From Microcaldota archaeon (GTDB lineage Archaea; Micrarchaeota; Micrarchaeia; Norongarragalinales; UBA8480), in the NCBI GenBank assembly GCA_023247085.1, contig JAHFHC010000010.1, positions 8,385 through 35,090 on the forward strand: 26,706 nt of DNA. Reading direction: 5' to 3'. The translations under genes were made by a program, and so were the position numbers. Below, one piece after another: positions 3,376-26,706 of the stretch; the first letter of the stretch is position 1; every line of letters begins with the position of its first letter. The notes under the pieces are model-generated. The model saw only the letters and a list, made by a program, of their open reading frames with translations. It had not been told where the DNA came from and did not search any database.

Positions 3376-4101
3376 TCAAAAATCGTAAAATGGCTTGCGT
3401 ACAAACTTTTGCTTAGATATTTTTTCGTGAATTTCCTGTGCTATTTTTTCAGAAACCACTGTGTCGACGTACTTTTTTTGGTTCTTGTGCTTCAACGGCG
3501 TCCTAAATTGGTGATAACTTCCAATCAAAGTATGTTCAACTCTATCGCGTTCAAACCCATATAACCCACTTTTTTGAACTGCGCTCCAAACTTCATCCGC
3601 TTTTTTCCTCTGCGTTTCTCCAGCTTTTGTTCTAAGTTCCTCGTAATATCCTGGCATTTCAATTGTCCACGCTTGCCTGTCAGCGTCTTCTAAAAATAGT
3701 AGTTCGGCGGTACTTGCAGCTGCCAAGGCCGTTTGGTCCGGGTCATCTGCGTAGGTATGTGGTACTGTTAAAACCTGAAATTCATCTGCTCTTCTCTCCT
3801 GTGCTTGTTTAAATTTAAAGTCTGGAGAACAGTGAAAATTAAACGCAAACGCGTTGTGTTCTAACCCCCTGCTTCGTGCTTTTTCTTCGCTTGAAAATCC
3901 AACTATGCGGCGCAAAGCTTCAACTGCATCAATTGGGTTTAATCTACTTACAATTCCATAGTTGGTTTCTTTTGCAGGAGTTTTTTTCAATACGACTTCG
4001 TGCCCGTACTTTTCGCGTAGAAGTTTTGCTACTTTCCTCGCGTGGAAACCAGCAACAACCTCAGCCGGATGCTCATTCCAAACCAAAAGAACTCTAGTCA
4101 T
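3376..4101 (-). CDS. Conserved-looking hypothetical protein downstream of metG
   Basis: A 241-residue soluble protein I do not recognise. It begins with a Rossmann-like strand (TRVLLVWNEHPAEVV), and contains FNFHCSPDF (about 88-96), VPHTYADDPDQT (about 113-124) and FLEDADRQAW. Clustered His, Cys, Asp and Glu could form a metal site as in amidohydrolases or carboxypeptidases, but this is only a resemblance. Its ATG lies six bases after the metG stop on the same strand, so the two are surely co-transcribed and possibly translationally coupled. The C-terminal third is basic and helical. Confidence 0.7.
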   Translation of the reverse strand: MTRVLLVWNEHPAEVVAGFHARKVAKLLREKYGHEVVLKKTPAKETNYGIVSRLNPIDAVEALRRIVGFSSEEKARSRGLEHNAFAFNFHCSPDFKFKQAQERRADEFQVLTVPHTYADDPDQTALAAASTAELLFLEDADRQAWTIEMPGYYEELRTKAGETQRKKADEVWSAVQKSGLYGFERDRVEHTLIGSYHQFRTPLKHKNQKKYVDTVVSEKIAQEIHEKISKQKFVRKPFYDF

Positions 4102-4107
4102 TTATTT

Positions 4108-5616
4108 TCACTGTATTTTTGGAAACAACACGAGTTTTTCAGCAGTTTGTTTTCCTTCTTTTATTTCGCCCCACTTACACTGTTTCAACTTAATTTTTTT
4201 CACTTCTTTTAGCCCAAGTGCATTATAGAGCCTTTCACTACTTGACGGCATAAATGGATAAAGTAGAACCGCGGTAATGCGTAGGGATTCGCACAATTCG
4301 TACATTACATTTTCAACTTCTTTTTGCTTGCCTTCTTTAGCTAATTTCCAAGGTTCAGAATCATTCACAAGCTTATTCGCCTCTTTGATAATGCTCCAGG
4401 TTTCTTCAAGCGCGCGGTTGAATTGATAAGCTTCCATTTTATCTTCGTATAGTTTTACTTTTTCTTCAACTGTTTTTTGCAATTTGGAAGTTTTTGGTTT
4501 AGGCGGCACTTTTCCGTTACAGTATCGGTTTAACATAACTAGCGTTCGATTTGCAAGGTTACCGAATTCATCTGCTAATTCGCCGTTATAACGTGCATCA
4601 AAAGATTTTTGTGAATAGTCTCCGTCTTCTCCAAAAGTGTTTTCGCGCAAGAGGAAATAGCGAAATGCATCGCAGCCATATTTTGCAATTACTGCATGTG
4701 GCTCAACGTAATTTCCTTTACTCTTGCTCATTTTGTCCCCTTCAATGGTCCACCAGCCATGTGCATAAACTTGCTTTGGCTCTTTTAAGCCAACTGCCCA
4801 TAACATCGCTGGCCAGTAAACTGCATGGAATTTTGCAATTTCTTTTCCAACCAAATGAACATCCGCTGGCCAAAAATTATTAGCGCTTTTTGGATTCTTT
4901 CCATCGTATTCAATTGCAGTTAAATAGTTGAAAAGCGCGTCTAGCCAAACGTAAATCACGTGTTCTTTGTCAAATGGTACTGGAATGCCCCACTTTACGT
5001 TTTTACGGCTCACGCTTAAATCTCGAAGTTCATCTTTGAAAAAATTATAAGCTTCATGCCATCTACTGTTCGGCTGTACAAATTGCTTATTTTCTTCAAA
5101 TAATTTTTGCAATTTCTTGCGATAAGTTGACAATTTAAAAAAGTAGCTCTCTTCTTGCTCGCGTTTTACATCCCTGCCACAATCTGGGCATTTACCGTTT
5201 ACCAATTGGGAATCAGTAAGAAAAGTTTCGCACGGTACACAATACCATCCTTCATATTTTCCCTTGTAAATTAAGCCAGCATCGTACATTTGTTGAAAAA
5301 TATTTTGCACTGCTTTTTCATGATAACTATCAGTAGTGCGTATAAATTTATCATACTCAATATCTAGCTCAACCCAAAGCTCCTTATATTGTTGAACTAT
5401 TTCGTTGACAAATTGAATTGGCGTTTTGCCCGCTTCCTTAGCCGCTTTCTCAACTTTTTGGCAATGTTCATCAGTTCCAGTTAAGAAAAACACGTCAAAG
5501 CCCTGAATTTTTTTGAACCTAGCAATTACGTCCGCGGCAATAGTAGTATACGCGTGGCCTAAATGCGGCGGGCCATTCGTGTAGTAAATTGGAGTAGTTA
5601 CGTAGAACTTTTTCAT
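4108..5616 (-). CDS. metG: Methionyl-tRNA synthetase, bacterial type
   Basis: Charges tRNA-Met in the cytoplasm. The 502-residue protein has the class I signature HLGH (18-21), KMSKS (295-299), and one zinc knuckle with Cys126-x2-Cys129 and Cys143-x2-Cys146 in the connective domain, followed by EESYFFKLS. This layout and wording (ITTPIYY-like start, EGWYC.PC, EESYFF, DGDYS) match the bacterial Thermus/Bacillus-type enzyme rather than the longer archaeal/eukaryal form. No C-terminal tRNA-binding (EMAP/Arc1-like) domain is present: the protein ends after the anticodon-binding helical domain. A bacterial origin by transfer is likely. It leads an operon with the unknown gene at 3376-4101. Confidence 0.95.
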   Translation of the reverse strand: MKKFYVTTPIYYTNGPPHLGHAYTTIAADVIARFKKIQGFDVFFLTGTDEHCQKVEKAAKEAGKTPIQFVNEIVQQYKELWVELDIEYDKFIRTTDSYHEKAVQNIFQQMYDAGLIYKGKYEGWYCVPCETFLTDSQLVNGKCPDCGRDVKREQEESYFFKLSTYRKKLQKLFEENKQFVQPNSRWHEAYNFFKDELRDLSVSRKNVKWGIPVPFDKEHVIYVWLDALFNYLTAIEYDGKNPKSANNFWPADVHLVGKEIAKFHAVYWPAMLWAVGLKEPKQVYAHGWWTIEGDKMSKSKGNYVEPHAVIAKYGCDAFRYFLLRENTFGEDGDYSQKSFDARYNGELADEFGNLANRTLVMLNRYCNGKVPPKPKTSKLQKTVEEKVKLYEDKMEAYQFNRALEETWSIIKEANKLVNDSEPWKLAKEGKQKEVENVMYELCESLRITAVLLYPFMPSSSERLYNALGLKEVKKIKLKQCKWGEIKEGKQTAEKLVLFPKIQ

Positions 5617-17220: not shown

Positions 17221-17233
17221 AAAAACACAATTT

Positions 17234-17248
17234 GCCTCCGTAGCTCAG
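17234..17248 (+). repeat. Duplicate of the first 15 nt of tRNA-Thr(TGT)
   Basis: GCCTCCGTAGCTCAG here is identical to the first 15 bases of the complete tRNA at 17358-17372; with two preceding T the identity is 17 bases. It is followed not by the rest of the tRNA but by a hairpin-forming segment. Confidence 0.85.
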
Positions 17249-17357
17249 AACCGCCTTTTTCTTTAGAAAAGAAAAAGGCCTGTTCAGTCCAAAAAGAAAT
17301 AAGTGAACACTTTTCTTTTTTCGTCAACGTTTTTTCTTTTAAAAAGAAAAAAAGGTT
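17249..17357 (+). mobile_element. Small palindromic element between the two tRNA 5' copies
   Basis: This 109-base segment begins AACCGCCTTTTTCTTT and ends AAAGAAAAAAAGGTT, imperfect terminal inverted repeats. Inside are a 12-bp stem (GCCTTTTTCTTT against AAAGAAAAAGGC, 17253-17279) and a second stem at 17331-17350. It is bounded by the 15-base direct repeats of the tRNA 5' end. It has no open frame. It could be a non-autonomous mobile element with a target duplication, or an intron of the D-loop whose boundaries are hidden in the repeat. Confidence 0.45.
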
Positions 17358-17393
17358 GCCTCCGTAGCTCAGTGGCAGAGCGCCTGTCTTGTA

Positions 17394-17458
17394 AAGTTTT
17401 TTCTTCATTTTACCAAGAAAGAAAAACTTGGGAAAAAGAAAGAAAAAATCTCAAAGCA
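17394..17458 (+). other. tRNA-Thr(TGT) intron 1 (anticodon loop, 37/38), 65 nt
   Basis: The intron starts AAGTTTTTTC and ends CTCAAAGCA. GTTT near its 5' end can pair with AAAC at the 3' exon junction, and CCAAG/CTTGG forms an internal hairpin. The bulge-helix-bulge is relaxed, not ideal; the length of the anticodon loop fixes the size at 65 nt. Confidence 0.8.
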
Positions 17459-17477
17459 AACAGGAGGTTGCGAGTTC

Positions 17478-17581
17478 AATTCGAAAGCCCTTTTCTTAGG
17501 AAGAAAAGGTCTTTCAGTCCCAAAAGAACAAATAGTCTTTTTGGGTTGAAAGCCTTTTTCTACAGAAAAAGGGCTTCGTGA
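17478..17581 (+). other. tRNA-Thr(TGT) intron 2 (T-loop), 104 nt
   Basis: The flanks fold into a textbook bulge-helix-bulge: T stem GCGAG/CTCGC, 3-nt bulge TTC (17475-17477), 4-bp helix AATT (17478-17481) with AATT (17582-17585), 3-nt bulge TGA (17579-17581), then an intron helix CGAAAGCCC (17482-17490) with GGGCTTCG (17571-17578). Removal gives T-loop TTCAATT, the same as in tRNA-Thr(GGT); a one-base shift of the cut would give TTAAATT. The interior holds three hairpins, including CTTTCAGTCCCAAAAG against CTTTTTGGGTTGAAAG. AATTC is repeated at both ends. Confidence 0.85.
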
Positions 17582-17656
17582 AATTCTCGCCGGGGGCTTT
17601 TTCTTTTTGAGTTGGGTTCTTTCAGTTCGAGTTTTTTTAACCGGCGCAATGAAACC

Positions 17657-17664
17657 TTTATATT
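17657..17664 (+). promoter_or_regulatory. TATA box of the M64-like lipoprotein gene
   Basis: TTTATATT is centred about 25 bases before the ATG at 17686, so the message should be leaderless and start at this ATG, not at the internal ATG at 17719. Confidence 0.55.
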
Positions 17665-17685
17665 GATTGCGCGTTTTTTTTTTAA

Positions 17686-18867
17686 ATGGCTAGGTTTGGT
17701 AAACAAAGTGTCACTCTAATGAAGTACTATTTACTTTTTCTTTTTTCTTTTCTACTTTTTGGATGCATTTCAATCGACCAATCCGATTCAACCGTTACTG
17801 GTGTGCCAAATCAATCTTCCCAGCTTCAAAATGAATCCGCATTGCACGTTGAGCCTATTCCGCAGGAACGTAACCAAAATGAAACGGCTATTAGTTTTCC
17901 TCCAGCTTCGGAAACAAACCCAACCAATCAAACTCCAATTAGTTCATCTTCCACGGGTGTAGCTTCGCAAATGATCCAATTATTCCCAGATTTAAATCAC
18001 CCATATGTTGGGGCTATAAACATAGCTGCAGTTATAGACGACTCGTCTGAATACAACCAACCTGACTCGTATTTTTACAATTTGTTGCAGAACGCTAATC
18101 GGTCTTTCACAGGTTTAACTGGTATTTCGTTTAATGTTATTAACCTAGTCCATTTAGCTAGTAATCAAAATAGTCATCCTGCAGAGCCTAGTACAAATTC
18201 AACTTCAAGTCTAACTCAAAATCAAACTCCATCTAGTTCATCTTCCATTGACCTTGCAAAGGTATATCTCGCACGTTACCCTGCACCAGAGTACTTAATT
18301 ATTTTTACTAGAAATGATCTCTCTGCTATTTCAAAGGGTGGCCGTGGAGGTGGTATAAACGGTTCTTCGTTACCGGCTGATTTTACATGTAATCGACTTC
18401 ATACGATGTATGGCTCTAGATCAATTGTCCTTAATTATGCTGATGCTACGCACAAAGCATTTATCTGTGGATATAATTCCACTAGATTTAAGCCCGGTGG
18501 TTGGAATACGCCACCGACGAGTAAAGTTTCAATAGATGGCCAATGCCACAATAGTCTTGGCATTCCGTGCGTTGTAGAAGGAGGTGCAAGCCGTTGTTCA
18601 AATTGGAGGCAAGTGAGCGGGGTAAATAATACGGTTCTAATAACTGATCTTGATAATCAATTGGTACAAATGATTATAGTCCACGAACTAGGGCATTCTT
18701 TTGCGCCTAGTAATTATGAGCATTTTGGTGCTCGGGACTGCATTGTTCGAACTAGAGCCACGATTAACTGGAGCAATATAGATATTCAAAACTCTGCTAC
18801 TAATTTCTTTGGCTTATGCCCGGATATATTTCCTCGATTCGCACGTAATTATGCGTCATGTTCATAG
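17686..18867 (+). CDS. Secreted zinc metalloprotease lipoprotein, peptidase M64-like
   Basis: A 393-residue exported protein. The signal has a basic start, hydrophobic YYLLFLFSFLLFGC and lipobox Cys27, followed by a long Ser/Asn/Thr/Pro linker (about 30-100 and again 160-190) rich in N-x-S/T sequons. The zinc motif is HELGH (333-337) in the context HELGHSFAPSNYEH, close to the HEFGHSFAGLADEY motif of the M64 (IgA-peptidase-like) family, and the upstream LIIFTRND..SKGGRGGG stretch resembles the N..YGGSGG strand of that family. Six or more Cys in the catalytic half suggest disulfides, as expected outside the cell. The internal ATG at 17719 would give a shorter signal peptide. The substrate is unknown; it may be a surface or neighbouring-cell protein. 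Confidence 0.68.
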   Translation: MARFGKQSVTLMKYYLLFLFSFLLFGCISIDQSDSTVTGVPNQSSQLQNESALHVEPIPQERNQNETAISFPPASETNPTNQTPISSSSTGVASQMIQLFPDLNHPYVGAINIAAVIDDSSEYNQPDSYFYNLLQNANRSFTGLTGISFNVINLVHLASNQNSHPAEPSTNSTSSLTQNQTPSSSSSIDLAKVYLARYPAPEYLIIFTRNDLSAISKGGRGGGINGSSLPADFTCNRLHTMYGSRSIVLNYADATHKAFICGYNSTRFKPGGWNTPPTSKVSIDGQCHNSLGIPCVVEGGASRCSNWRQVSGVNNTVLITDLDNQLVQMIIVHELGHSFAPSNYEHFGARDCIVRTRATINWSNIDIQNSATNFFGLCPDIFPRFARNYASCS

Positions 18868-18998
18868 TTTTTTTATTTAATAAAGCATTTCAAAACTTAT
18901 TCAATTATCTTAGCGTTTCAGCATAGTTTTTCTGATCCTTGATTAATAGGATATATGGACTTGCGCCCAGTGGGCTCTCGCATTTGGGTTCATAAGTC

Positions 18999-19172
18999 GT
19001 GTTCTCCAAATTCGAAGCACTCAAAGAATTTCACCAACTAAATTCCAGCCAAAACAAGCTAGCTCCAAAACCAGATGATGCCGGCGATGCATATCGTTTT
19101 AAGCATATTTTGCTAACTATTTTCAAGGTGAGTATTGAATGGCTTTTCATCCTGAAGTTGAACTTGTTTTAA
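18999..19172 (+). pseudogene. Short open frame, possibly the remains of a gene
   Basis: A 57-residue frame starting with GTG (VFSKFEALKEFHQLNSSQNK then APKPDDAGDAYRFKHILLTI). The composition is protein-like in its first two thirds; its last residues run over the next gene start at 19139 in another frame. It may be a small real protein or an old fragment. No family recognised. Confidence 0.25.
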
Positions 19173-19544
19173 AAAATCATTTATCCAATACTGAAGTTGC
19201 TATTGTTCGTGCAAAGCTTGATCATGATGGCGCTAAAAAACACGTTGATTTTATTTAACAAAACAGAAAACCCACGCCTTCAGGCGTGGGATGAATGCTA
19301 GCTGCTTTGTTAAAGCCTTACACTTCGCCTTGCAGGAACACGAGTGCCGGTAAAACCAAGGGCTTTAGCCCTTGGTCAGGCACGAGTGGGCGAAGTGTAA
19401 GTTATAGCTAGACATCAACGCGCCCGTGCTGCTTTGAAAAATGCAATCCAAAGCGGAGTTTTAAACGAGCATGCTAACCGCGCTTTAAGTTCCGAAATTG
19501 TTAAGCTTGTAGCTACCCAACGCTGCTTTCAAAATCTTTAACCG
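19139..19544 (+). pseudogene. Small gene interrupted by a palindromic element
   Basis: ATG 19139 has GGTGA seven bases upstream (19127-19131), so it was a real start. The frame gives 39 codons (MAFHPEVELVLKNHL, later VRAKLDHDGAKKHVDFI) and stops at 19256-19258, next to the palindromic element. After the element an open frame from 19401 encodes another helical basic stretch (ARHQRARAALKNAIQSGVLN then EHANRALSSEIVKLV) ending at TAA 19542-19544. Joining the two is inference, based on similar composition and on the element between them. The original family is unknown. Confidence 0.4.
19260..19401 (+). mobile_element. Palindromic element, IS200/IS605-end-like (PATE/MITE type)
   Basis: Three nested or tandem stems in 142 bases: CCCACGCCTTCAGGCGTGGG (19271-19290); CTTACACTTCGCC (19317-19329) with GGCGAAGTGTAAG (19389-19401), enclosing GTGCC (19344-19348) with GGCAC (19379-19383); and innermost CCAAGGGCTTTAGCCCTTGG (19356-19375). 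Short hairpins with TTTA/TTCA loops are typical of IS200/IS605 and TnpB element ends. The left side directly follows TTTAAC (19254-19259), a target used by IS605-type elements, and no target duplication is seen, as expected for that family. No tnpA or tnpB is present, so it would be non-autonomous. Confidence 0.55.
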
Positions 19545-19693
19545 CGCATTCCCATCCGTGAGAGTTTTTTCAAGAGTTTTCTTGTATTCTTCTCGAGAAA
19601 GCATATGTGAGCCAAGAGGAGAATATGCGGTCATATGCCTTAATTGCAATTTACTTTGCTGAACAGTAGCGCCTATGGTATTATATGACTAAC

Positions 19694-20140
19694 TTAGTGC
19701 AGTTTTTTTAAAGTTTTTTTTAATGCATTTGCAATTTCTGAAAAATCGTTGTATCGAATAATAGCTGGAATATTGTTTTTTTTATTTGCCGGATTCTCCA
19801 AAAACAAGGCTTCTGTAAATGGAATTGAAATGCTATTGTGCACCGCCATTATTGTTGGTTTTCCCATTCCGGCAAAGTACCCCGCGTCCCAACCGCGCCC
19901 TTCGCTTGGGTCATTAAATGAATAAATACACAATGCAAGATCGCATGTTTCATAAAGTGCATAAGCTTTTCTAACTGCTTCAATTTTAGGCATTGAATCT
20001 GGATTCCAATTTTGTATGTCACACAACATAGTAACTACTTCGTGCCCGTTTGCCTGTAGCAATGCCTTAATTTCTTCTAACTGTGTTTTTAAATCTGTTA
20101 AATTTGCGCCCCTAAATTTATACGCCAGCCAAATTCTCAT
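19694..20140 (-). CDS. Nucleoside 2-deoxyribosyltransferase-like protein
   Basis: A 148-residue Rossmann-like protein. It begins with MRIWLAYKFRG, a typical first strand of the NDT/DUF4406-like fold, and has the substrate-site segment CDLALCIYSFNDPSEGRGWD followed by AGYFAGMGKPTIM, where the Glu of SEGRGWD matches the catalytic Glu of nucleoside deoxyribosyltransferases. It could cleave or exchange the base of (deoxy)nucleosides or nucleotides. The open frame continues to 20242, but the ATG at 20140 is preferred: it begins exactly at the first strand, and a TATA box (GATTATAAAAATC, 20162-20174 on this strand) lies at leaderless distance inside the longer frame. Confidence 0.68.
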   Translation of the reverse strand: MRIWLAYKFRGANLTDLKTQLEEIKALLQANGHEVVTMLCDIQNWNPDSMPKIEAVRKAYALYETCDLALCIYSFNDPSEGRGWDAGYFAGMGKPTIMAVHNSISIPFTEALFLENPANKKNNIPAIIRYNDFSEIANALKKTLKKLH

Positions 20141-20161
20141 AAAAAGACTTATGCCCCACCT

Positions 20162-20174
20162 GATTTTTATAATC
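20162..20174 (-). promoter_or_regulatory. TATA box of the deoxyribosyltransferase-like gene
   Basis: On the minus strand GATTATAAAAATC is centred about 27 bases before the ATG at 20140. It supports the shorter start and a leaderless message. Confidence 0.5.
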
Positions 20175-20264
20175 CACGTTGCCTTAACAATATAATTCTC
20201 TAAGCTTTTTTTCCAATGGTTTAAAATACTTTGAGTATCCAAAACAAATACAGTTGAATTTTAC

Positions 20265-20423
20265 ATGGGTAAGTTTCCAATCGCTGAACGACACATTTTA
20301 GGGGTACTAATTTGCAAAAAGTGCAAAACGCGCAACTCAAAAGCAGCAGAGCGATGCCGTAAATGTGCATACACTAATTTAAGGCCAAAACGAGCAAAGA
20401 AGAAAGAAGCAAAAGGCAAATAG
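20265..20423 (+). CDS. rpl40e: Ribosomal protein eL40
   Basis: A 52-residue large-subunit ribosomal protein. It reads MGKFPIAERHILGVLICKKC, then KTRNSKAAERCRKCAYTNLR and PKRAKKKEAKGK, with a four-Cys zinc site (Cys17-x2-Cys20-x10-Cys31-x2-Cys34) and the family pattern C..C..RN...A.RCRKC.Y..LRPK. It binds 23S rRNA near the factor-binding site. It is short and so easily missed in automated gene calling. A TATA-like TTTAAAATAC at about 20220-20229 would give a leader of roughly 15 bases. The gene is divergent from the deoxyribosyltransferase-like gene. Confidence 0.95.
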   Translation: MGKFPIAERHILGVLICKKCKTRNSKAAERCRKCAYTNLRPKRAKKKEAKGK

Positions 20424-20514
20424 AGCATCTTCTTCATATAGAACTATAATTTAGGCACTAGTTTTCACCGGGCAGTCCTTTTAAATCTAGGTTCAGTTAT
20501 ACCACAGATAACAA

Positions 20515-21651
20515 ATGCCACGGCCACTCTTTTCTACTAAAACTAAATTAGTTCTTGCTGAATTAGACCGAACATTTCCACTGGACCGAGCGGCTTTGGA
20601 GGAAATGGCCGCTAAAAAGGTAATTGTGCCACTTGGAAAACGCTTCAAAACTACTGCGCCTAATATCACAATTGCAGAAAGATTCAGGAGACTATTTAGA
20701 AATAGGCGCTTATACGCCATTCCATTTAAGGATATTCGTGGGAGTTCAGGTGGGCTTGCGGGTTTAACCTTGCATAACCGGAGTCTATTTACTGTTGCTG
20801 CTGGCCAAAGGCAATTTGTGTTCAAAGGTACTGGTTCACAGGGAGAGCACAGTTATCGCGGTGCCCTGGGAGATTATGCTGAACATCGTTTTTATGGCGG
20901 TGCAAGAGTTCAGACAATCAGATGGGCAGTTGATACCTTACAAGAATTAGAACATGCGTACAAGGCAGCTAACCGTGATGAGGTAGTACGGTGGGCAGCC
21001 AAAGAGCACGGAATAACTGAATTGCCAGTTATAAAGCACGTTGCAGTTTTCCGTCCACTTCAAATTCTCACTGGAAAACAAGGTACAAAGCTAAGGCGTT
21101 TGCCAATAACAAAACAATCAATGAAAGCATTAGGGTTAGGTGAATTTTATGGCGACCAACGGGTTCAAGTTTACAGTGCAGTTCAACCAAAGCGCATAGA
21201 AAATTTTGAAACCACCTCGGATTTCCTAGCCGATGCTAAAAATATTGCCAAAAAAACAGGAGAAGATATCAGGCGAGTGGTATTAAAACGTTTTTTAGCG
21301 CGCTCGCTGCTTTTCTTACATATAGCGCATTCGCGAAGAATTGTTCTCTCTAGCCCCAGTGGCTCAATTATAGGCTATACAAATACCGGGCCATTTGAAT
21401 TTTTTGACTTTGACGTGGCTGAAAAAATTCGTGACAGAAAAGAATTTTCAAAACGCGCTGAAACAGATTATGAAAAATTAGCCATACTAGCAAGTGGATT
21501 AGCATTAGGCTTGAAGGGACCGCCGTTCTCGTTTAAAAATATCTCCCGCATCGAAGCAGCTAGCCTCAAATTTGATACTCCCCCAAACGGCAAAGAATTA
21601 AATGAGCGCCTTGAACGGATTGCAGATCACTTCTTTCCAAAAAACGACTAA
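20515..21651 (+). CDS. Uncharacterised protein with possible SelO/kinase-like fold
   Basis: A 378-residue soluble protein. QFVFKGTGSQGEHSYRGALG with DYAEHRFYGGARV after it (about 100-132) recalls the KGTG..G....GA..EY..SEAM segment of SelO-type pseudokinases, and FEFFDFDVAEKI (about 294-305) could be a DFG-like metal motif, preceded by RSLLFLHIAHSRRIVL. The match is remote and may be chance. The N-terminal 80 residues are basic and contain RRLFRNRRLYAI. There is no signal peptide or membrane segment. A TATA-like TTTTAAATC near 20480 precedes the ATG. It lies just before the tRNA-Leu locus, with no evident functional link. Confidence 0.5.
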   Translation: MPRPLFSTKTKLVLAELDRTFPLDRAALEEMAAKKVIVPLGKRFKTTAPNITIAERFRRLFRNRRLYAIPFKDIRGSSGGLAGLTLHNRSLFTVAAGQRQFVFKGTGSQGEHSYRGALGDYAEHRFYGGARVQTIRWAVDTLQELEHAYKAANRDEVVRWAAKEHGITELPVIKHVAVFRPLQILTGKQGTKLRRLPITKQSMKALGLGEFYGDQRVQVYSAVQPKRIENFETTSDFLADAKNIAKKTGEDIRRVVLKRFLARSLLFLHIAHSRRIVLSSPSGSIIGYTNTGPFEFFDFDVAEKIRDRKEFSKRAETDYEKLAILASGLALGLKGPPFSFKNISRIEAASLKFDTPPNGKELNERLERIADHFFPKND

Positions 21652-21705
21652 GTGCAACTGTTCACAAGGTAATTAAATTATTTCAGCACAAAATACTTAA
21701 CAAAT

Positions 21706-21720
21706 GCAGTGGTAATAAAG
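21706..21720 (+). repeat. Decayed copy of the first 15 nt of tRNA-Leu(CAG)
   Basis: GCAGTGGTAATAAAG matches GCAGGGGTAGCAAAG (21811-21825) at 12 of 15 positions and lies 105 bases upstream in the same direction. A hairpin with TTTTCTTTTC against GAAAAGAAAA (21730-21752) follows almost at once, the same arrangement as upstream of tRNA-Thr(TGT). Its T at position 5 would break the acceptor stem, so it is not the functional tRNA start. Confidence 0.45.
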
Positions 21721-21727
21721 GAAAGAA

Positions 21728-21776
21728 CTTTTCTTTTCGCGGAAAAGAAAACCTCTTTTAAACTCCAAAAGAAAAG
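21728..21776 (+). repeat. Hairpin repeat of the tRNA-associated family, tRNA-Leu leader copy
   Basis: A 10-bp stem (TTTTCTTTTC / GAAAAGAAAA, loop GCG) is followed by CCTCTTTTAAACTCCAAAAG. The same order, a hairpin then CC..TTTNA..TCCAAAAG, occurs at 17253-17301 and 17488-17528 by tRNA-Thr(TGT), so these are probably copies of one sequence. Confidence 0.5.
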
Positions 21777-21810
21777 CTTCAATTACTTTATCCGCCTAAA
21801 TAGACTAATT

Positions 21811-21996
21811 GCAGGGGTAGCAAAGCTTGGTCAAATGCGCCAGATTCAGGGTCTGGTCCCGAATGGGTTCGAGAGCGAGCCTTTTTCTTTTGAGAAAAGA
21901 AAAAGCATCGATGGAAAAAGAAAACCGTATGCTCCTCGAATTCAAAAAGCCGTTCGGAAAAATATCCAACGGAGAGTGAAAATCTCTCCTCCTGCA
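21811..21996 (+). tRNA. tRNA-Leu(CAG) with an interrupted T arm
   Basis: Acceptor GCAGGGG pairs with CTCCTGC, the anticodon stem is CCAGA/TCTGG with loop TTCAGGG (anticodon CAG), the long variable arm is TCCCGAATGGGTTC as in archaeal tRNA-Leu, T stem 5' strand is GAGAG (21871-21875) and 3' strand CTCTC (21984-21988), discriminator A21996. Between the two T-stem strands lie 108 bases instead of 7. With a 7-base T-loop the mature tRNA would be 85 nt, normal for a class II tRNA. A T-run terminator follows at 21999. Confidence 0.88.
21876..21983 (+). other. Interrupted T-loop region of tRNA-Leu(CAG), one or two introns
   Basis: The segment holds an 11-bp perfect stem CTTTTTCTTTT/AAAAGAAAAAG (21881-21905), a second stem GCATCGATGG with CCGTATGC, and a third CCGTT/AACGG (21950-21954 / 21967-21971). 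A single 101-base intron between the GAGAG repeats (21871 and 21972) would leave T-loop TGAAAAT, which lacks the invariant TTC. A two-intron model (about 21876-21940 and 21944-21979) leaves TTCAAAT. A bulge-helix-bulge-like shape also exists: TTCGAG/CTCGAA, 3-nt bulge AGC with the cut point at 21875/21876, then GAGC/GCTC. The exact borders are unresolved. Confidence 0.6.
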
Positions 21997-22023
21997 CTAT
22001 TTTTTTTAATTGTTTAATCTAAT

Positions 22024-22947
22024 CTACTGTGTGCTTGCTTTTTCTAGTCGATTCAACAACGCTCTGCCAATCCCTTTTTTTTCTGGAATCTCCGCATAAA
22101 TATTTTCAATGCCCCGCAAATCACACTCGCGAAAGAACCAGTACAGTTTCTTTGCATACTCGCCCACCGTTTTTACTTTTATTTTGTACGTTGCATTTGG
22201 ATTTGAAAAACCAATAAACGCACAATTAGCTGGGAGTATTGCTCCTCGTTTCACCAAGTGTACTTTTCCATTTGGCGAGTAGTGTCGATACTTCATTCCA
22301 GGGCTAAGTGTTTCCTTTACATCAATTGGTATATTTATTTGCCCCACTATTTTTTCCAATTCTTCAACTGTAACTGCGCCTGGCCGCAGCAACACTGGAA
22401 CTTTTTTTGTGCAGTCAATAACCGTAGATTCCAAACCATGCCTGCACTTTGGCCCTTTTAAAATCAGTGGAATTCTTTCATTCATATCGTGCAAAACATG
22501 TTGCCAAGTTGTTGGGCTAGGTTTACCGGATAAATTAGCAGAAGGTGCGGCAACTGGAACCCCGCATTGCTTCAAAAAAGCACGCGTTATTGAAAGCGAA
22601 GGCATCCGAATGCAAACTGTTGACAATCCAGCAGTAACTATGCTTGGAATTCTCGCATTTTTTTTTACAACAACTGTAAGCTGCCCTGGAAAACATTTAT
22701 CCACGAGTTTTTTAGCAACTGGCGAAACTTCACTTGCAATTTCTCCAATTTGTTTTTTATTCCAAATGTGCACAATGAGGGGATTATCCGCTGGTCGGCC
22801 TTTAGCAGCGAAAATTTTCTTCACTGCACGTTCATCAAAAGCGTTTGCCCCTAAGCCATAAACTGTTTCAGTTGGAAACGCAACGAGGTTCCCCGCTAAA
22901 ATAGCTCTTGCCGCTTCACTTATAGTTGTAGTCAATTTGGTTTTCAT
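22024..22947 (-). CDS. sua5: Threonylcarbamoyl-AMP synthase (Sua5)
   Basis: Makes threonylcarbamoyl-AMP for the t6A modification at position 37 of ANN-decoding tRNAs. The 307-residue protein has the YrdC domain motifs FPTETVYGLGANA, KGRPADNPLIVHI, SANLSGKPSPT and LESTVIDC, plus a C-terminal Sua5 domain after the linker (about 215 on) starting SPGMKYRHYSP. That makes it the two-domain form rather than TsaC. The ATG at 22947 is preferred to an in-frame TTG six bases upstream. It converges on the tRNA-Leu gene and is divergent from the membrane-protein gene, with only 17 bases between start codons. Confidence 0.93.
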   Translation of the reverse strand: MKTKLTTTISEAARAILAGNLVAFPTETVYGLGANAFDERAVKKIFAAKGRPADNPLIVHIWNKKQIGEIASEVSPVAKKLVDKCFPGQLTVVVKKNARIPSIVTAGLSTVCIRMPSLSITRAFLKQCGVPVAAPSANLSGKPSPTTWQHVLHDMNERIPLILKGPKCRHGLESTVIDCTKKVPVLLRPGAVTVEELEKIVGQINIPIDVKETLSPGMKYRHYSPNGKVHLVKRGAILPANCAFIGFSNPNATYKIKVKTVGEYAKKLYWFFRECDLRGIENIYAEIPEKKGIGRALLNRLEKASTQ

Positions 22948-22964
22948 ATCCAACTTATTCTTTT

Positions 22965-23441
22965 ATGTTTCCCGCGCCATTAAAACTAATGCTTTTTTTA
23001 ACTGGCTACATCAATAATTTACTTGCAGGTGTTGCATTTATGGTCGGTATATTCAAGTGGCTTAATGAACCAGAAAACCAGTTTTTTGCATTTCATGCAG
23101 TTTTTATTTTAGCGGTTGCATTTTTAGCAGAAGAGTTCTTCCCGGGTTGGACGATTTTTATTTACCCAGCAGCGTTGCTTATCTCAGTTGCTAGTTTCAT
23201 GCTAAACTATCCAGCTGACCAAATCAAAAGCCACGGGTTATTTTCAGAATACTTAATTGAACTTCGTTTACTCTGGCTAATCGTATTAGGCGTATTCGGT
23301 GAATATGTAGTTTACCAAGCGCTTGAAAAAGGAGCCTTAACTTTATACGCCGGCGCAGCACTCTTAGTTGGAATAGTAATTCTCTTTTACAGCAGAAGCC
23401 ACTTGCAAGAAAAAATCATTGCAGCAAGAGGGTTCAAATAA
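22965..23441 (+). CDS. Integral membrane protein of unknown function
   Basis: A 158-residue product with about five hydrophobic spans (near residues 8-28, 41-57, 60-80, 96-115 and 122-141) separated by short charged loops (KWLNEPENQ, NYPADQIKSHG, SRSHLQEK). No motif identifies a family. The ATG is 17 bases from the divergent sua5 start, so the two promoters must overlap with the opposite coding regions. Converges with the murein hydrolase gene 30 bases beyond its stop. Confidence 0.65.
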   Translation: MFPAPLKLMLFLTGYINNLLAGVAFMVGIFKWLNEPENQFFAFHAVFILAVAFLAEEFFPGWTIFIYPAALLISVASFMLNYPADQIKSHGLFSEYLIELRLLWLIVLGVFGEYVVYQALEKGALTLYAGAALLVGIVILFYSRSHLQEKIIAARGFK

Positions 23442-23471
23442 AAAAGTCTAGGTGCTAAAATAGATGAGCGC

Positions 23472-24983
23472 TTAAGTAACGCCGGATCTTGGCGCTACAG
23501 AGTTACCTCTTGCGCTAACTGCAACATTTGAAATAGTTGGTTCAGTTGGCATTTCGCTACCAAATTTTTCCCTGTACTTTGTTTTAATTTTAGCTACGTA
23601 GCCAATTGTTTCTTGTGGTTTTGTATCCCCGCGTCCAAATGCAGTTGGTCCCATGTTGTACGCCGCTAGTAAATCTTCAGTTGTTTCAATGTTAGATGCT
23701 GCACGTCTTTGCCACAAGATTGCCATGTATTGGGCACCCGCACAAACGTTTATTGAAGGATTAATCAGATCATCAAAATTAATTTGGTTATCTTGGTCTC
23801 TATAATTGTTGACTTCGGCTACTGCGGTTTTTCTTAATTGCAATAACCCAAGTGCATTTGCGCCGCTTTGTGCTAAAGTATCTCCGCCGTTATCACCACA
23901 ATTCCCGCCACTTTCTGCTATAATTTGAGCCTTTAGTAGTTTTTCATTAATACCATATTCTGAAGAGCATTCGCTTATGACTGGGTTTAATTCGGCATCG
24001 GTAAATTGGAGGCAAGTGGGGGTTCTTGTTCTAGCAAGTGTCAATAACTCAGTATCTGACTTTGCAGTTACGTCCGCTGTTCCAGCTTCTTCTTCACCAG
24101 TATCTATTTCTTCAATTGCCGGTCCGCTTGCTGCTTCGCCTCTAAATCCTCCGGGGTATTCAATACATTTTGGCTTATCTGAAGGAGAACAATGAAAAGT
24201 TACGTGAAAGTGATTTCCATGTCCCTTCCAGTGTAGTAAAAGCGTTGAAAATATTTGATCTGTAAGTGGCCCGGGGTCATTTTCTGTTGCGTAAACTCTA
24301 AGTTGATTGATTAGAGTTCTGTCAAGCAATATTTGTCTAACTGGCGTGTATTCAGCTAAAGTACGTACAAAAATCCAGTTTGTTTCAGGGTCAAAAGTTC
24401 CAACGCTTGAATCCTGGTTATTGCAGTCCACGTAGCCCCCGCTTGGCGTATTGCATGTAAATGCGAGGTCTGCATCAAGCCCATTTTGGTGCGTTAAATG
24501 CGGGGGGTAAACCAGTCCACCGTCTTGAGCAGATAATGCGTTTATTCTAAGTTTAGTGCCACCCGTTGTATAACTAACTGCACACCCTGCGATTTCAAGT
24601 GAGTTAATTGCTTCTGTCGTAGCCCAATCATGATCAGTTGCCGCAACTTTCAAATATAAATTATCTGCCGGTACTTGAACTCCATTTTCCAACGAGCCGA
24701 CACCACGAGTTGTGCTCACGCTTCCATATTCTCCCATTGCTTTAGAGTCACTTTCAAAGTGTGTAACTTTGCATGGAATGCTGTGGCCGTCAACATGCAC
24801 TTGAGTTGGCGCGCGTGTTTCAATTGTCGGAATCCCACTTGGCGCTTCAGTTGGGCTCACGTCGCTGCCAGTTACAAACACTAAAATTTGATTGTCTTTC
24901 AATTCGTTGCCTTTATACGTCCAAACTGAAGCAACTAACACTAGCCCAAATAAAAACAATGCAGCAAATAGTCTGAGTTTCAT
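23472..24983 (-). CDS. Exported murein hydrolase: MepA (M74) endopeptidase domain plus SLT lytic transglycosylase domain
   Basis: A 503-residue exported or membrane-anchored protein with an N-terminal hydrophobic segment (residues 4-22). Residues about 85-280 match MepA-type murein endopeptidase: THQNGLDADLAF supplies His165 and Asp172, and HGNHFHV supplies His255, His258 and His260, with the same spacing as the E. coli metal-site residues. A linker rich in Glu/Thr/Ala (282-310) leads to an SLT domain (about 335-475): catalytic Glu357 in AQIIAESGGN, GANALGLLQL, INVCAGAQYMAIL and AAYNMGP. Both active sites appear intact. Several Cys suggest disulfides. Archaea have no murein, so the likely target is bacterial cell wall. 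A bacterial source is likely for both domains; the fused architecture is unusual. Confidence 0.88.
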   Translation of the reverse strand: MKLRLFAALFLFGLVLVASVWTYKGNELKDNQILVFVTGSDVSPTEAPSGIPTIETRAPTQVHVDGHSIPCKVTHFESDSKAMGEYGSVSTTRGVGSLENGVQVPADNLYLKVAATDHDWATTEAINSLEIAGCAVSYTTGGTKLRINALSAQDGGLVYPPHLTHQNGLDADLAFTCNTPSGGYVDCNNQDSSVGTFDPETNWIFVRTLAEYTPVRQILLDRTLINQLRVYATENDPGPLTDQIFSTLLLHWKGHGNHFHVTFHCSPSDKPKCIEYPGGFRGEAASGPAIEEIDTGEEEAGTADVTAKSDTELLTLARTRTPTCLQFTDAELNPVISECSSEYGINEKLLKAQIIAESGGNCGDNGGDTLAQSGANALGLLQLRKTAVAEVNNYRDQDNQINFDDLINPSINVCAGAQYMAILWQRRAASNIETTEDLLAAYNMGPTAFGRGDTKPQETIGYVAKIKTKYREKFGSEMPTEPTISNVAVSARGNSVAPRSGVT

Positions 24984-25017
24984 ATTATAACAAAAGTAAA
25001 GGCGACGCTAGTTATAA

Positions 25018-25608
25018 TTATTGGGGTTTAGCAATTGGCTTTCGCCAAAATGAAAGAAAAGCAGTATGCATTAATCCCGTGTTAACCGGCCGACACCCAC
25101 GGTTACGCACTAGCCAATCGCGCGTGTTTACTTCCATAATTCTCTCTTGAGAAAAACCAATTGTAATTGCGGTTTCAGCAAATGTGCGAATTTGTTCAAC
25201 ATTCGGGTGATAGCCAACTAGCACTCCGTTCTCTTTCAAGCAATTAAATGCATTGCCAATTGCTTTTTCACTATCAGCTAAATCAAGAATCACAGCATCA
25301 ACATCTTTTTCATCAATGCCATCAAAAACATTTTTCAACTTAAGTTCAACAATTTTTTCAAAACCCAACTTAACTGCGTTTTTTTCAACTAGCTTAGCAA
25401 AATCTTCCCGCCATTCATACGAATAAACCTTGCCTTTTTCTCCAACAACATTAGCAAGAAAAACAGATAGAAACCCCGAGCCAGCACCAGCTTCCACTAC
25501 TCTGTCGCCTGCGCCTATTCCTGCAAAACCAAGGATTGCAGAGGCGTCTTTCAATACAATCACTTGCGGCCCGCGTTTTAACTTTTCAAAAACATTTACG
25601 TCTAACAT
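25018..25608 (-). CDS. trmI: tRNA (adenine-N1)-methyltransferase, TrmI-like
   Basis: Probably makes m1A at position 57/58 of the tRNA T-loop. The 196-residue protein has RGPQVIVLKDASAIL, motif I VVEAGAGSGFLS (37-48), YSYEWRED, VDAVILDLADSEKAI and the C-terminal RPVNTGLMHTAFLSFWRK, all typical of archaeal TrmI. It is shorter than the usual 250 residues: the N-terminal beta domain is nearly absent and the frame starts just before the RG.QVI motif. The ATG at 25608 is used; an in-frame TTG nine bases upstream would add three residues. The neighbouring tRNA-Thr(GGT) is divergent. Confidence 0.8.
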   Translation of the reverse strand: MLDVNVFEKLKRGPQVIVLKDASAILGFAGIGAGDRVVEAGAGSGFLSVFLANVVGEKGKVYSYEWREDFAKLVEKNAVKLGFEKIVELKLKNVFDGIDEKDVDAVILDLADSEKAIGNAFNCLKENGVLVGYHPNVEQIRTFAETAITIGFSQERIMEVNTRDWLVRNRGCRPVNTGLMHTAFLSFWRKPIAKPQ

Positions 25609-25768
25609 AATATACAATTTTCACTTTACAACTTTCACTTACAACTAAGTTTATTTCAATGCAATTAAATAAAACAATAGTGACTCAAATAAGTTCTCCT
25701 ATTGACTTGACAAGCAAACCATAAAAAGTTAAGTTGCTCCATATTTTGTTTCGTTTAGCTGTGTTTTT

Positions 25769-25840
25769 GCCTTCGTAGCTCATCGGCAGAGCGTTTGCAT
25801 GGTAAGCAAAAGGTAGCGAGTTCAATTCTCGCCGAGGGCT
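25769..25840 (+). tRNA. tRNA-Thr(GGT), intron-free
   Basis: 72 nt: acceptor GCCTTCG/CGAGGGC, D stem GCTC/GAGC, anticodon stem TTTGC/GCAAA, loop ATGGTAA with anticodon GGT, variable loop AGGTA, T stem GCGAG/CTCGC and T-loop TTCAATT, discriminator T. No CCA is encoded. TATA-like ATATTTTG lies at 25741-25748, about 25 bases upstream. It shares most of its body with tRNA-Thr(TGT). Confidence 0.96.
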
Positions 25841-25860
25841 CTATAGTATTTTTGGCGACT

Positions 25861-25910
25861 GAAAGCACCTTTTCGCAAAAGGGGCTTTCGTTACCAACTC
25901 GCCGGGGGCT
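25861..25910 (+). repeat. Stray copy of an intron hairpin plus tRNA-Thr 3' end
   Basis: A hairpin (GAAAGCACCTTTT, loop CGC, AAAAGGGGCTTTC; 25861-25889) is followed by CTCGCCGGGGGCT (25898-25910), which is exactly the last 13 bases of tRNA-Thr(TGT). The order and spacing match the 3' part of intron 2 plus exon 3 of that gene (about 17548-17598). It stands 57 bases after the intact tRNA-Thr(GGT), whose own last 13 bases differ from it at one position. Confidence 0.75.
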
Positions 25911-26007: not shown

Positions 26008-26706
26008 ATGGCTAGGCGAGGTGCAAGACGGGAACAAAGAGCAAGAGAACAATTAGACTTTTGGACAACGCGGCTAGGTGCTGAAAGCAAAGGAGTAGAA
26101 CGAGTTCCGCTCGAAGGTGGCTTTGAATTAAAAGAAGGGCGAAGCGTTAAAGTTACAAAAGCTCATTTGCAAGATTTAGCTAAAGAACATGCTAGAACGC
26201 AAATGGACTATGTTTTAAGGGTGGCAAAGAAGAGCGCCTTAGCTGGAAGCGCGGCGCACGCTGCAATTGTAGCTAGGCGTGGAACGGCTGAAGAAATTTT
26301 GGAACTTGCAGGTGCCGCTGCACTCAGAGGTAGGCCAGAAGCTGCTGCTTCAATACTAGCCGATGGAGTGAAAGCAGGCGCACTAAAACCAAGCGACGTT
26401 ACCGATGCTTTTCTTAAGCATGCAGATGCCGCTACACGCAAAGGTAGGCCAGAAGCTGCTGCTTCAATACTAGTCGATGGAGTGAAAGCAGGCGCACTAA
26501 ACAGAGGCCATACGGATGCTTTTCTTAAGCATGCGGATGCAGCTGCACGTGAAGGTAGTCCAGTTGCTGCTGCTTCAATACTAGTCGATGGAGTGAAAGC
26601 AGGTGCACTAAAACCAAGCGACGTTACCGATGCTTTTCTTAAGCATGCAGGTGCCGCTGCACTCAAAGGTAGGCCAGAAGCTGCTGCTTCAATACTAGCC
26701 GATGGA
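26008..26706 (+). CDS. Helical 38-residue-repeat protein, 3' end cut by the window
   Basis: At least 233 residues, open at the window edge. GGTGA at 25994-25998 sets the ATG, ten bases on. Residues 1-107 are a charged, helical head (MARRGARREQRAREQLDFW onward) with no signal peptide. From residue 108 come near-identical repeats of 38, 37 and 38 residues and the start of a fourth: GRPEAAASILADGVKAGALK then PSDVTDAFLKHADAATRK. Each unit predicts two amphipathic helices, so the array should stack as an alpha-solenoid (HEAT/TPR-like), a protein-binding scaffold. The family is not recognised. The repeats are almost identical at DNA level, which suggests recent expansion. Confidence 0.75.
   Translation, partial: MARRGARREQRAREQLDFWTTRLGAESKGVERVPLEGGFELKEGRSVKVTKAHLQDLAKEHARTQMDYVLRVAKKSALAGSAAHAAIVARRGTAEEILELAGAAALRGRPEAAASILADGVKAGALKPSDVTDAFLKHADAATRKGRPEAAASILVDGVKAGALNRGHTDAFLKHADAAAREGSPVAAASILVDGVKAGALKPSDVTDAFLKHAGAAALKGRPEAAASILADG
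26329..26706 (+). repeat. In-frame tandem repeat of 114/111/114 bases
   Basis: Units start at 26329, 26443, 26554 and 26668 (the last is partial). Each begins GGTAGGCCAGAAGCTGCTGC or a close variant. The second unit is one codon shorter because NRGHTDAF replaces KPSDVTDAF. Third-position differences are few. Confidence 0.9.

Follow-up and report, generated by a model that had tools for sequence, protein, structure and literature searches.

Short hairpin elements with a mirrored purine tail form a probable mobile family associated with tRNA genes and tRNA introns in Micrarchaeota

Why are the A/T-rich hairpins of one short stretch of archaeal DNA gathered at its tRNA genes, and do they belong to a family that can move? 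The stretch in question (26,706 nucleotides; hereafter, the window) is C36:8385-35090 of G000, a Micrarchaeota metagenome bin of 893 kb that is 92% complete. The GuaB of this genome has 96% identity to that of the metagenome-assembled genome (MAG) nzgw34 and 76% to that of the MAG C4_metabat.bin.26. A first-pass annotation had read the hairpins as a mobile family that inserts in tRNAs and persists as introns, and our analysis supports this reading. The hairpins probably represent a family of short, non-autonomous mobile DNA elements of about 50–65 bp, which seed tRNA introns. We also consider it likely that, in Micrarchaeota, these elements enter mainly tRNA genes and persist either as introns predicted to be spliced or beside an intact copy of the target.

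With a loose pattern, TnCTm..AmGAn, only six hairpins were found in the window (17256-17276, 17330-17353, 17397-17420, 17491-17507, 21729-21751 and 21882-21904), and all of them were in, or not more than about 130 bp from, tRNA-Thr(TGT) and tRNA-Leu(CAG) (Table 1). The strict form matched four times, while 200 dinucleotide shuffles gave a mean of 0.015. The cluster is therefore real and far above chance, and the copies share a strict architecture beyond simple A/T richness. The tail of the type (T)CAGTCC-AAAAGAA, as first described, is present, but its general form is a linker followed by an AnGAm tail. The first listing of the hairpins overlooked the hairpin-like intron at 17394-17458, and the consensus does not cover one listed member, at 25867-25883, which is a decayed relative. 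ARAGORN and Rfam detected just tRNA-Thr(GGT) in the window, and it was the sole Rfam match there at the gathering score; the other two tRNA genes were missed because of their introns. The Rfam group I intron model had no match within the window, and weak miRNA matches at relaxed E-values were discarded as A/T-hairpin noise.

In families f1, f4 and f5, the parts of the element follow one order: S1, the arm TnCTm.., a loop, the arm ..AmGAn, S2, a short rest and the tail. The outer stem S1/S2 was at least 4 bp in 49 of 121 elements (shuffled mean 11.6, maximum 21). When tail and 5' arm are read in parallel, one is the complement of the other, and in 80 of the 94 informative elements this held for every position of the arm, as compared with a mean of 18 and a maximum of 31 for shuffled pairs (2000 shuffles). 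A second C in the 5' arm was matched by a second G at the corresponding place in the tail (TTTTCTTTCTT and AAAAGAAAGAA). Among 96 listed copies from another 27 genomes, 91 had arm and tail runs of equal length; shuffling gave a mean of 42 and a maximum of 58. Two other descriptions of the tail were rejected: it was a direct repeat of the 3' (R) arm in 0 of 94 elements, and antiparallel pairing with a nearby T-rich tract occurred in 9 of 107, compared with 11 of 107 for the mirror control. The element has the Y-R-R order, with a third strand in register and antiparallel to the R strand, which is how a class II intrastrand triplex is defined (PMC4666352), and its strand is predicted to fold into such a purine-motif triplex. 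Because a mirror image cannot come from copying, we infer that a parallel contact of three strands is under selection.

The whole genome was searched with TTTTCTTTN{2,14}AAAGAAAA, and the same pattern reversed served as the control. The search gave 40 hairpins in G000 and 2 with the control. By our reading, 31 of the 40 copies were inside tRNA genes, 4 were within about 120 bp of them, 1 was in the 16S rRNA gene, where its position was confirmed separately, and 4 were elsewhere. Since the tRNA genes, introns included, make up about 0.8% of the genome, the proposed enrichment at tRNA genes holds. They are the main site of the family, but not the only one, as copies also occur in 16S rRNA genes, at the ends of protein genes and in intergenic DNA.

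Our catalogue for G000 has 60 introns, which are spread over 34 tRNA genes; two further tRNA genes did not parse and are outside it. The introns were chiefly at T-loop 59/60 and anticodon-loop 37/38, with the D-loop next. In 17 of 22 T-loop introns, exon nucleotides 54–57 form pairs with the end of the intron at the offset of a bulge-helix-bulge (BHB) motif, which gives the 4-bp central helix at the exact position; at other offsets the rate was 1.8%. Removal of the introns restored the tRNA fold, many of the spliced sequences were called by ARAGORN, and empty-site orthologues confirmed the borders. Some of our anticodon-loop borders were off by one base, and some sequences needed a 1-nt shift of these borders. 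Within introns, 25 elements were in the sense and 4 in the antisense orientation. A splicing endonuclease (PF01974) is present at C26, with two matches in one frame and a broken upstream part, an arrangement that is consistent with, but does not prove, the three-unit epsilon type. The endonuclease gene (about 3800-4300, L157) itself bears an element at its 3' end, and a run of N breaks its gene model. Another side observation concerns a near-palindromic T-loop intron of 119 bp (L026, C35:30885-31003), which has hairpins in both orientations and is 80% identical, in inverted sense, to the T-loop intron of tRNA-Thr(TGT) in the window.

The main comparison genome was that of a congener, G002, with a flank identity of 88–91% to G000, and the expected presence/absence polymorphism was evident there as both clean empty sites and replaced elements. 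The element-bearing T-loop introns of tRNA-Thr(TGT), Arg/C35, Trp, Ala-GGC, C21:11071 and Gln-CTG (both T- and D-loop) were cleanly missing from the congener, and the 16S insert was likewise cleanly absent. Also missing were two introns without an element, Thr-CGT (T-loop) and Gln-TTG (D-loop), and conversely, the D-loop intron of Leu-CAG was present in the congener and not in G000. At other sites, including Arg-TCT, Pro-CGG, iMet, C36:6160, Ala-TGC and Gly-CCC, the two genomes have the intron in common but a different element inside it, and the exons were near-identical where the elements differed. Element-free introns present in both genomes were mostly 0.92–1.00 identical (Ile D-loop, 0.78; Gln-TTG, exceptions). 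Elements were conserved at some sites, namely C24, Leu-TAG, the Gln-TTG T-loop and C28:14400. The core of the Arg-TCT anticodon intron in G000 was 100% identical over 52 bp to the core of the initiator-tRNA T-loop intron in G002. At the 3' end of the endonuclease gene (endA) in G000, GAATATTATGAGATAGRGTGGGTGCARCC occurs twice (29 bp, 2 mismatches) around an element of 54–56 bp; in G002, it is single and the element is absent. The empty sites, the swapped elements, the shared 52-bp core and the endA repeat indicate that the elements move.

In the window, two elements, A and B, lie upstream of tRNA-Thr(TGT) and are flanked by an exact 17-bp direct repeat at 17232 and 17356. A 73-bp stretch with the tRNA-Thr 5' fragment (17234-17248) is absent from the congener (G002/L054). 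Over 52 bp, element A shared 96% identity with an element of G002 that lies in the anticodon intron of a different tRNA, and element B is kept in G002 and absent 5' of the G001 orthologue. In the BHB of the T-loop intron, the T-stem is followed by a bulge ATT, a helix TTCA:TGAA, a second bulge ATT and the inner helix CGAAAGCCC:GGGCTTCG, and the site is clean and empty in the congener (GCGAGTTCAATTCTCGCC). The first T-arm intron of tRNA-Leu(CAG) has a homologue in tRNA-Leu(TAG), conserved in G002. The stretch downstream of tRNA-Thr(GGT), at 25858-25909, was 74% identical to the T-loop intron and 3' exon of tRNA-Thr(TGT). Each hairpin had been described as flanked by a duplicated piece of its tRNA. 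This was correct for the fragments at 17234-17248 and 25898-25909, but the hairpins at 17488-17507, 17558-17575 and 21881-21905 are inside introns and unflanked. Most of the copies in the window are introns of this kind, which lack a duplicated target.

Direct repeats were also found in other genomes. The genomes of family f5 have 14–66 bp direct repeats around 20 of 31 hairpins, as compared with 2 of 372 random positions, and the targets were tRNA 5' ends (in the order fragment, element, intact tRNA), tRNA 3' ends and the starts of protein genes. G017 has two copies of the GAPDH 5' end and its congener G014 has one, and one f5 element (L287) occupies 64 bp between exact 28-bp repeats. In G000, a longer duplication, in tRNA-Tyr (C27), resembles the tRNA-Thr GCCTCCGTAGCTCAG repeat on either side of elements A and B. 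A broader sample, with a single locus from each genome, had direct repeats in 1 of 31, and thus the repeat-flanked copies are mainly a feature of family f5, together with single cases. A contig end of G001 (L055 1-270, JAUYPK010000088), where the 5' part of a tRNA-Thr is joined via two elements to the 3' end of another tRNA, may reflect recombination via these elements or a misassembly and was not used as evidence.

Table 1. Positions of the elements, tRNA genes and introns in the window.
Feature	Positions	Strand	Remarks
Duplicated 5' fragment of tRNA-Thr (GCCTCCGTAGCTCAG)	17234-17248	+	Left direct-repeat copy flanking elements A and B
Element A, AACCGCC-TTTTTCTTT..AAAGAAAAA-GGCCTGTTCAGTCC-tail AAAAAGAAA	17249-17299	+	Consensus architecture
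Element B, inverted, immediately 5' of tRNA-Thr(TGT)	17311-17357	-	Consensus architecture
tRNA-Thr(TGT), two introns (anticodon loop, T-loop)	17358-17597	+	Spliced 71-nt sequence called tRNA-Thr(tgt) by ARAGORN
Anticodon-loop intron (37/38) with degenerate element	17394-17458	+	Also in G002
T-loop intron (59/60), 104 bp, with two reported hairpins (17488-17507, 17558-17575)	17481-17584	+	
Free element, 36 bp upstream of tRNA-Leu(CAG)	21721-21775	+	Conserved in G002
tRNA-Leu(CAG), two T-arm introns	21811-21995	+	Spliced T-arm GAGAG-TTCAAAT-CTCTC
T-arm intron (53/54) with element, linker GCATCGATGG, tail AAAAAGAAAA	21876-21940	+	
Second T-arm intron (59/60), element-free, 4-bp BHB helix	21947-21982	+	
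tRNA-Thr(GGT), without intron	25769-25841	+	ARAGORN, Rfam
Decayed hairpin and duplicated tRNA-Thr 3' end (CTCGCCGGGGGC at 25898-25909)	25858-25909	+	

Further downstream, at 26035-26641, the window has a repetitive alanine-rich open frame, of which partial repeat copies with 65–74% identity are found at L054 1519-2364.

The full pattern was found in 59 of 301 Micrarchaeota genomes and in 45 of 126 genera, with reversed controls near zero, and it was nearly absent from families f27 and f28. Elements inside tRNA introns were found elsewhere in the phylum with ARAGORN. In the 16S gene of G009 (L273), a stretch of 941 nt spans just positions 20–709 of the small-subunit (SSU) rRNA model because several small elements are inserted within it. 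The mirrored hairpin and tail also occur, rarely, in viral and phage contigs (L336-L415), in NC_014633.1 and in Pseudoalteromonas replicons; among the phage and bacterial copies with matching arms, the tail also matched in 53 of 65. The idea that the architecture is restricted to Micrarchaeota is refuted by these contigs and replicons, and the structural class is thus wider than the tRNA-intron family. The phage and bacterial copies often have the outer stem, then C, then AAAAAGAAA.

From these observations, a course of events can be proposed. The element, a short outer stem S1/S2 around the hairpin TnCTm/AmGAn with 0–5 nt and then the purine tail AnGAm, would move at the DNA level as a single strand in triplex form. 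Its copies insert in DNA, often with a direct target duplication of 14–66 bp or sometimes longer, as in the repeat-flanked copies, and at other sites without one. Highly transcribed tRNA and rRNA genes, which are the main sites, may be preferred. A copy would survive where the duplication leaves an intact gene beside the fragment, or where the insertion is in a loop and the exon and intron ends make a BHB, from which the host endonuclease would remove the intron. Both routes, as put forward in the first-pass annotation, have counterparts in our data, in introns ready for predicted splicing and in duplications that leave an intact copy. Because the T-loop TTCGAA is its own reverse complement, its duplication would supply the BHB helix TTCG:CGAA. 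Established introns would turn over by replacement of the element, as seen between G000 and G002, and may also be copied between tRNAs with similar arms. Eukaryotic introners, which are mobile, non-autonomous elements, create introns in bulk; these introns are spliceosomal and in mRNA, whereas those of Micrarchaeota are of the BHB type and in tRNA and rRNA. As a tentative extension, for which we would not claim even odds, the family may be an archaeal 'introner', a mobile element whose triplex core is read by some enzyme and which makes tRNA and rRNA introns de novo via the duplicated TTCGAA.

Several points weigh against a mobile family of this kind. No transposase, integrase or recombinase was found, and the exclusion covers the Y1 and RVT_1 families alone: the Y1 transposase (PF01797) was absent from G000 at E<=1, and the reverse transcriptase (PF00078, RVT_1) was absent in six genomes. 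The matching integrase or transposase of the first-pass annotation thus did not emerge. The T-loop introns lack an obvious target duplication, and therefore they may arise by a different route from the repeat-flanked copies. The elements in introns are mostly in the sense orientation, and a purely DNA-level process would not require this bias. Gain and loss are unpolarised for most of the polymorphisms, and the triplex is a prediction from sequence. As the mirrored architecture is also present in bacterial and phage DNA, it is by itself no sign of tRNA-intron mobility. In addition, the genomes are metagenome bins, in which repeats may mislead the assembly.

Among the other explanations, the strongest, although still unlikely, is templated insertion, in which a stalled fork or a break at a tRNA gene is repaired by a template switch that copies a hairpin from another place and re-enters upstream of the break, to give an insert and a variable tandem duplication with no transposase. 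The varying repeat lengths, the additional bases that separate some elements from the second repeat copy, the lack of the two enzyme families searched for and the association of triplex motifs with instability (PMC4666352) are in favor of it, but random template switching would not be expected to yield constant element ends at unrelated sites (AACCGCC..AAAAAGAAA, GCCATGCC..AAAGAAA and GGTCGCC..). It is less likely again that these are ordinary BHB introns, which spread whole by gene conversion or recombination and carry the hairpin as a mere stabiliser. Such spread has a precedent in the Thermoproteales (Fujishima 2010, according to PMC4090602) and is compatible with the BHB motifs, with the sense bias of 25:4 and with the repeated finding of T-loop introns that share their ends in tRNAs whose T-arms are identical (Ala-GGC, Ala-CGC and C28:14400). 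However, the element cores move from one intron position to another, where the flanks differ; they are exchanged within introns that are otherwise conserved, occur in both orientations and are also found outside tRNAs, with direct repeats. The free copies with target duplication and the empty sites in relatives also speak against the spread of whole introns as a full account.

Similarly improbable is the explanation that the tail and hairpin are an RNA structure of the intron, either an A-rich third strand or an alternative pairing, which is selected for splicing without any DNA triplex. Although the shared sense orientation of most intron copies fits this explanation, the covariation extends to the repeat-flanked copies by protein genes in family f5, phage and bacterial DNA show it as well, and purine-motif triplexes exclude RNA strands, to judge from a title cited in PMC4666352. 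Intrinsic terminators or plain A/T-rich hairpins near tRNA genes are very improbable as the general explanation. A few copies are directly downstream of tRNAs (His in L009; L307, L322 and L323), and C8:8421 looks like a terminator, but the majority, for which this explanation was rejected, are within tRNA genes and have BHB ends and the mirrored tail.

Parts of this picture are already known: the transposition of tRNA introns in the Thermoproteales, an insertion model for the tRNA-Thr of Caldiarchaeum and bacterial triplex repeats without evidence of mobility. The BHB introns of the Thermoproteales transpose by an unknown mechanism (Fujishima et al. 2010, as reported in PMC4090602 and PMC10714607). 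By comparison, the elements here have a defined core with constant ends, which is common to introns, rRNA, protein-gene ends and intergenic DNA; they are found in either orientation, together with duplicated targets and empty sites, and the host is a member of the Micrarchaeota (DPANN). In Caldiarchaeum, one tRNA-Thr has a 1.9-kb insertion with a predicted recombinase gene (Sugahara et al. 2012, PMC3293823). An intron gain and an upstream 5' tRNA-Thr fragment after insertion in a tRNA gene are common to both cases, but here the inserts are non-coding elements of about 55 bp at dozens of sites. The TMECO and PIT repeats are class II potential intrastrand triplex elements (Holder et al. 2015, PMC4666352; Hoyne et al. 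2000). Our elements are like them in the order of pyrimidine, purine and reverse-Hoogsteen purine on one strand, in the third strand antiparallel to the duplex purine strand and in being repeated in the genome. TMECO, however, is G/C-rich and bacterial, and no mobility functions were found next to it, whereas the elements here are A/T-rich, have a third strand that co-varies, are polymorphic in insertion and form introns. They also resemble prokaryotic miniature inverted-repeat transposable elements (MITE) and repetitive extragenic palindromic (REP) sequences, as they are short, non-coding, repeated and hairpin-forming. Unlike MITE, terminal inverted repeats were not seen by inspection at the clearest insert (endA), and the duplications are long and variable (14–66 bp); unlike the REP/RAYT system (IS200/IS605-like), G000 has no Y1 transposase. 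We found no publication that combines intron transposition, tRNA-Thr insertion and triplex repeats, or that reports mobility of Micrarchaeota tRNA introns, in a search that covered the subscription literature thinly. The tail as the parallel complement of the 5' hairpin arm is a new observation.

The origin of archaeal tRNA introns is an old open question. Since close relatives show the element, the target duplication, the empty sites and the introns that result, the birth of an intron becomes directly testable in these archaea. The three-strand covariation is unusually direct comparative evidence for a triple helix under selection in natural genomes. Because standard tRNA finders miss most of such tRNA genes and the 16S genes carry inserts, surveys of DPANN archaea may be biased.

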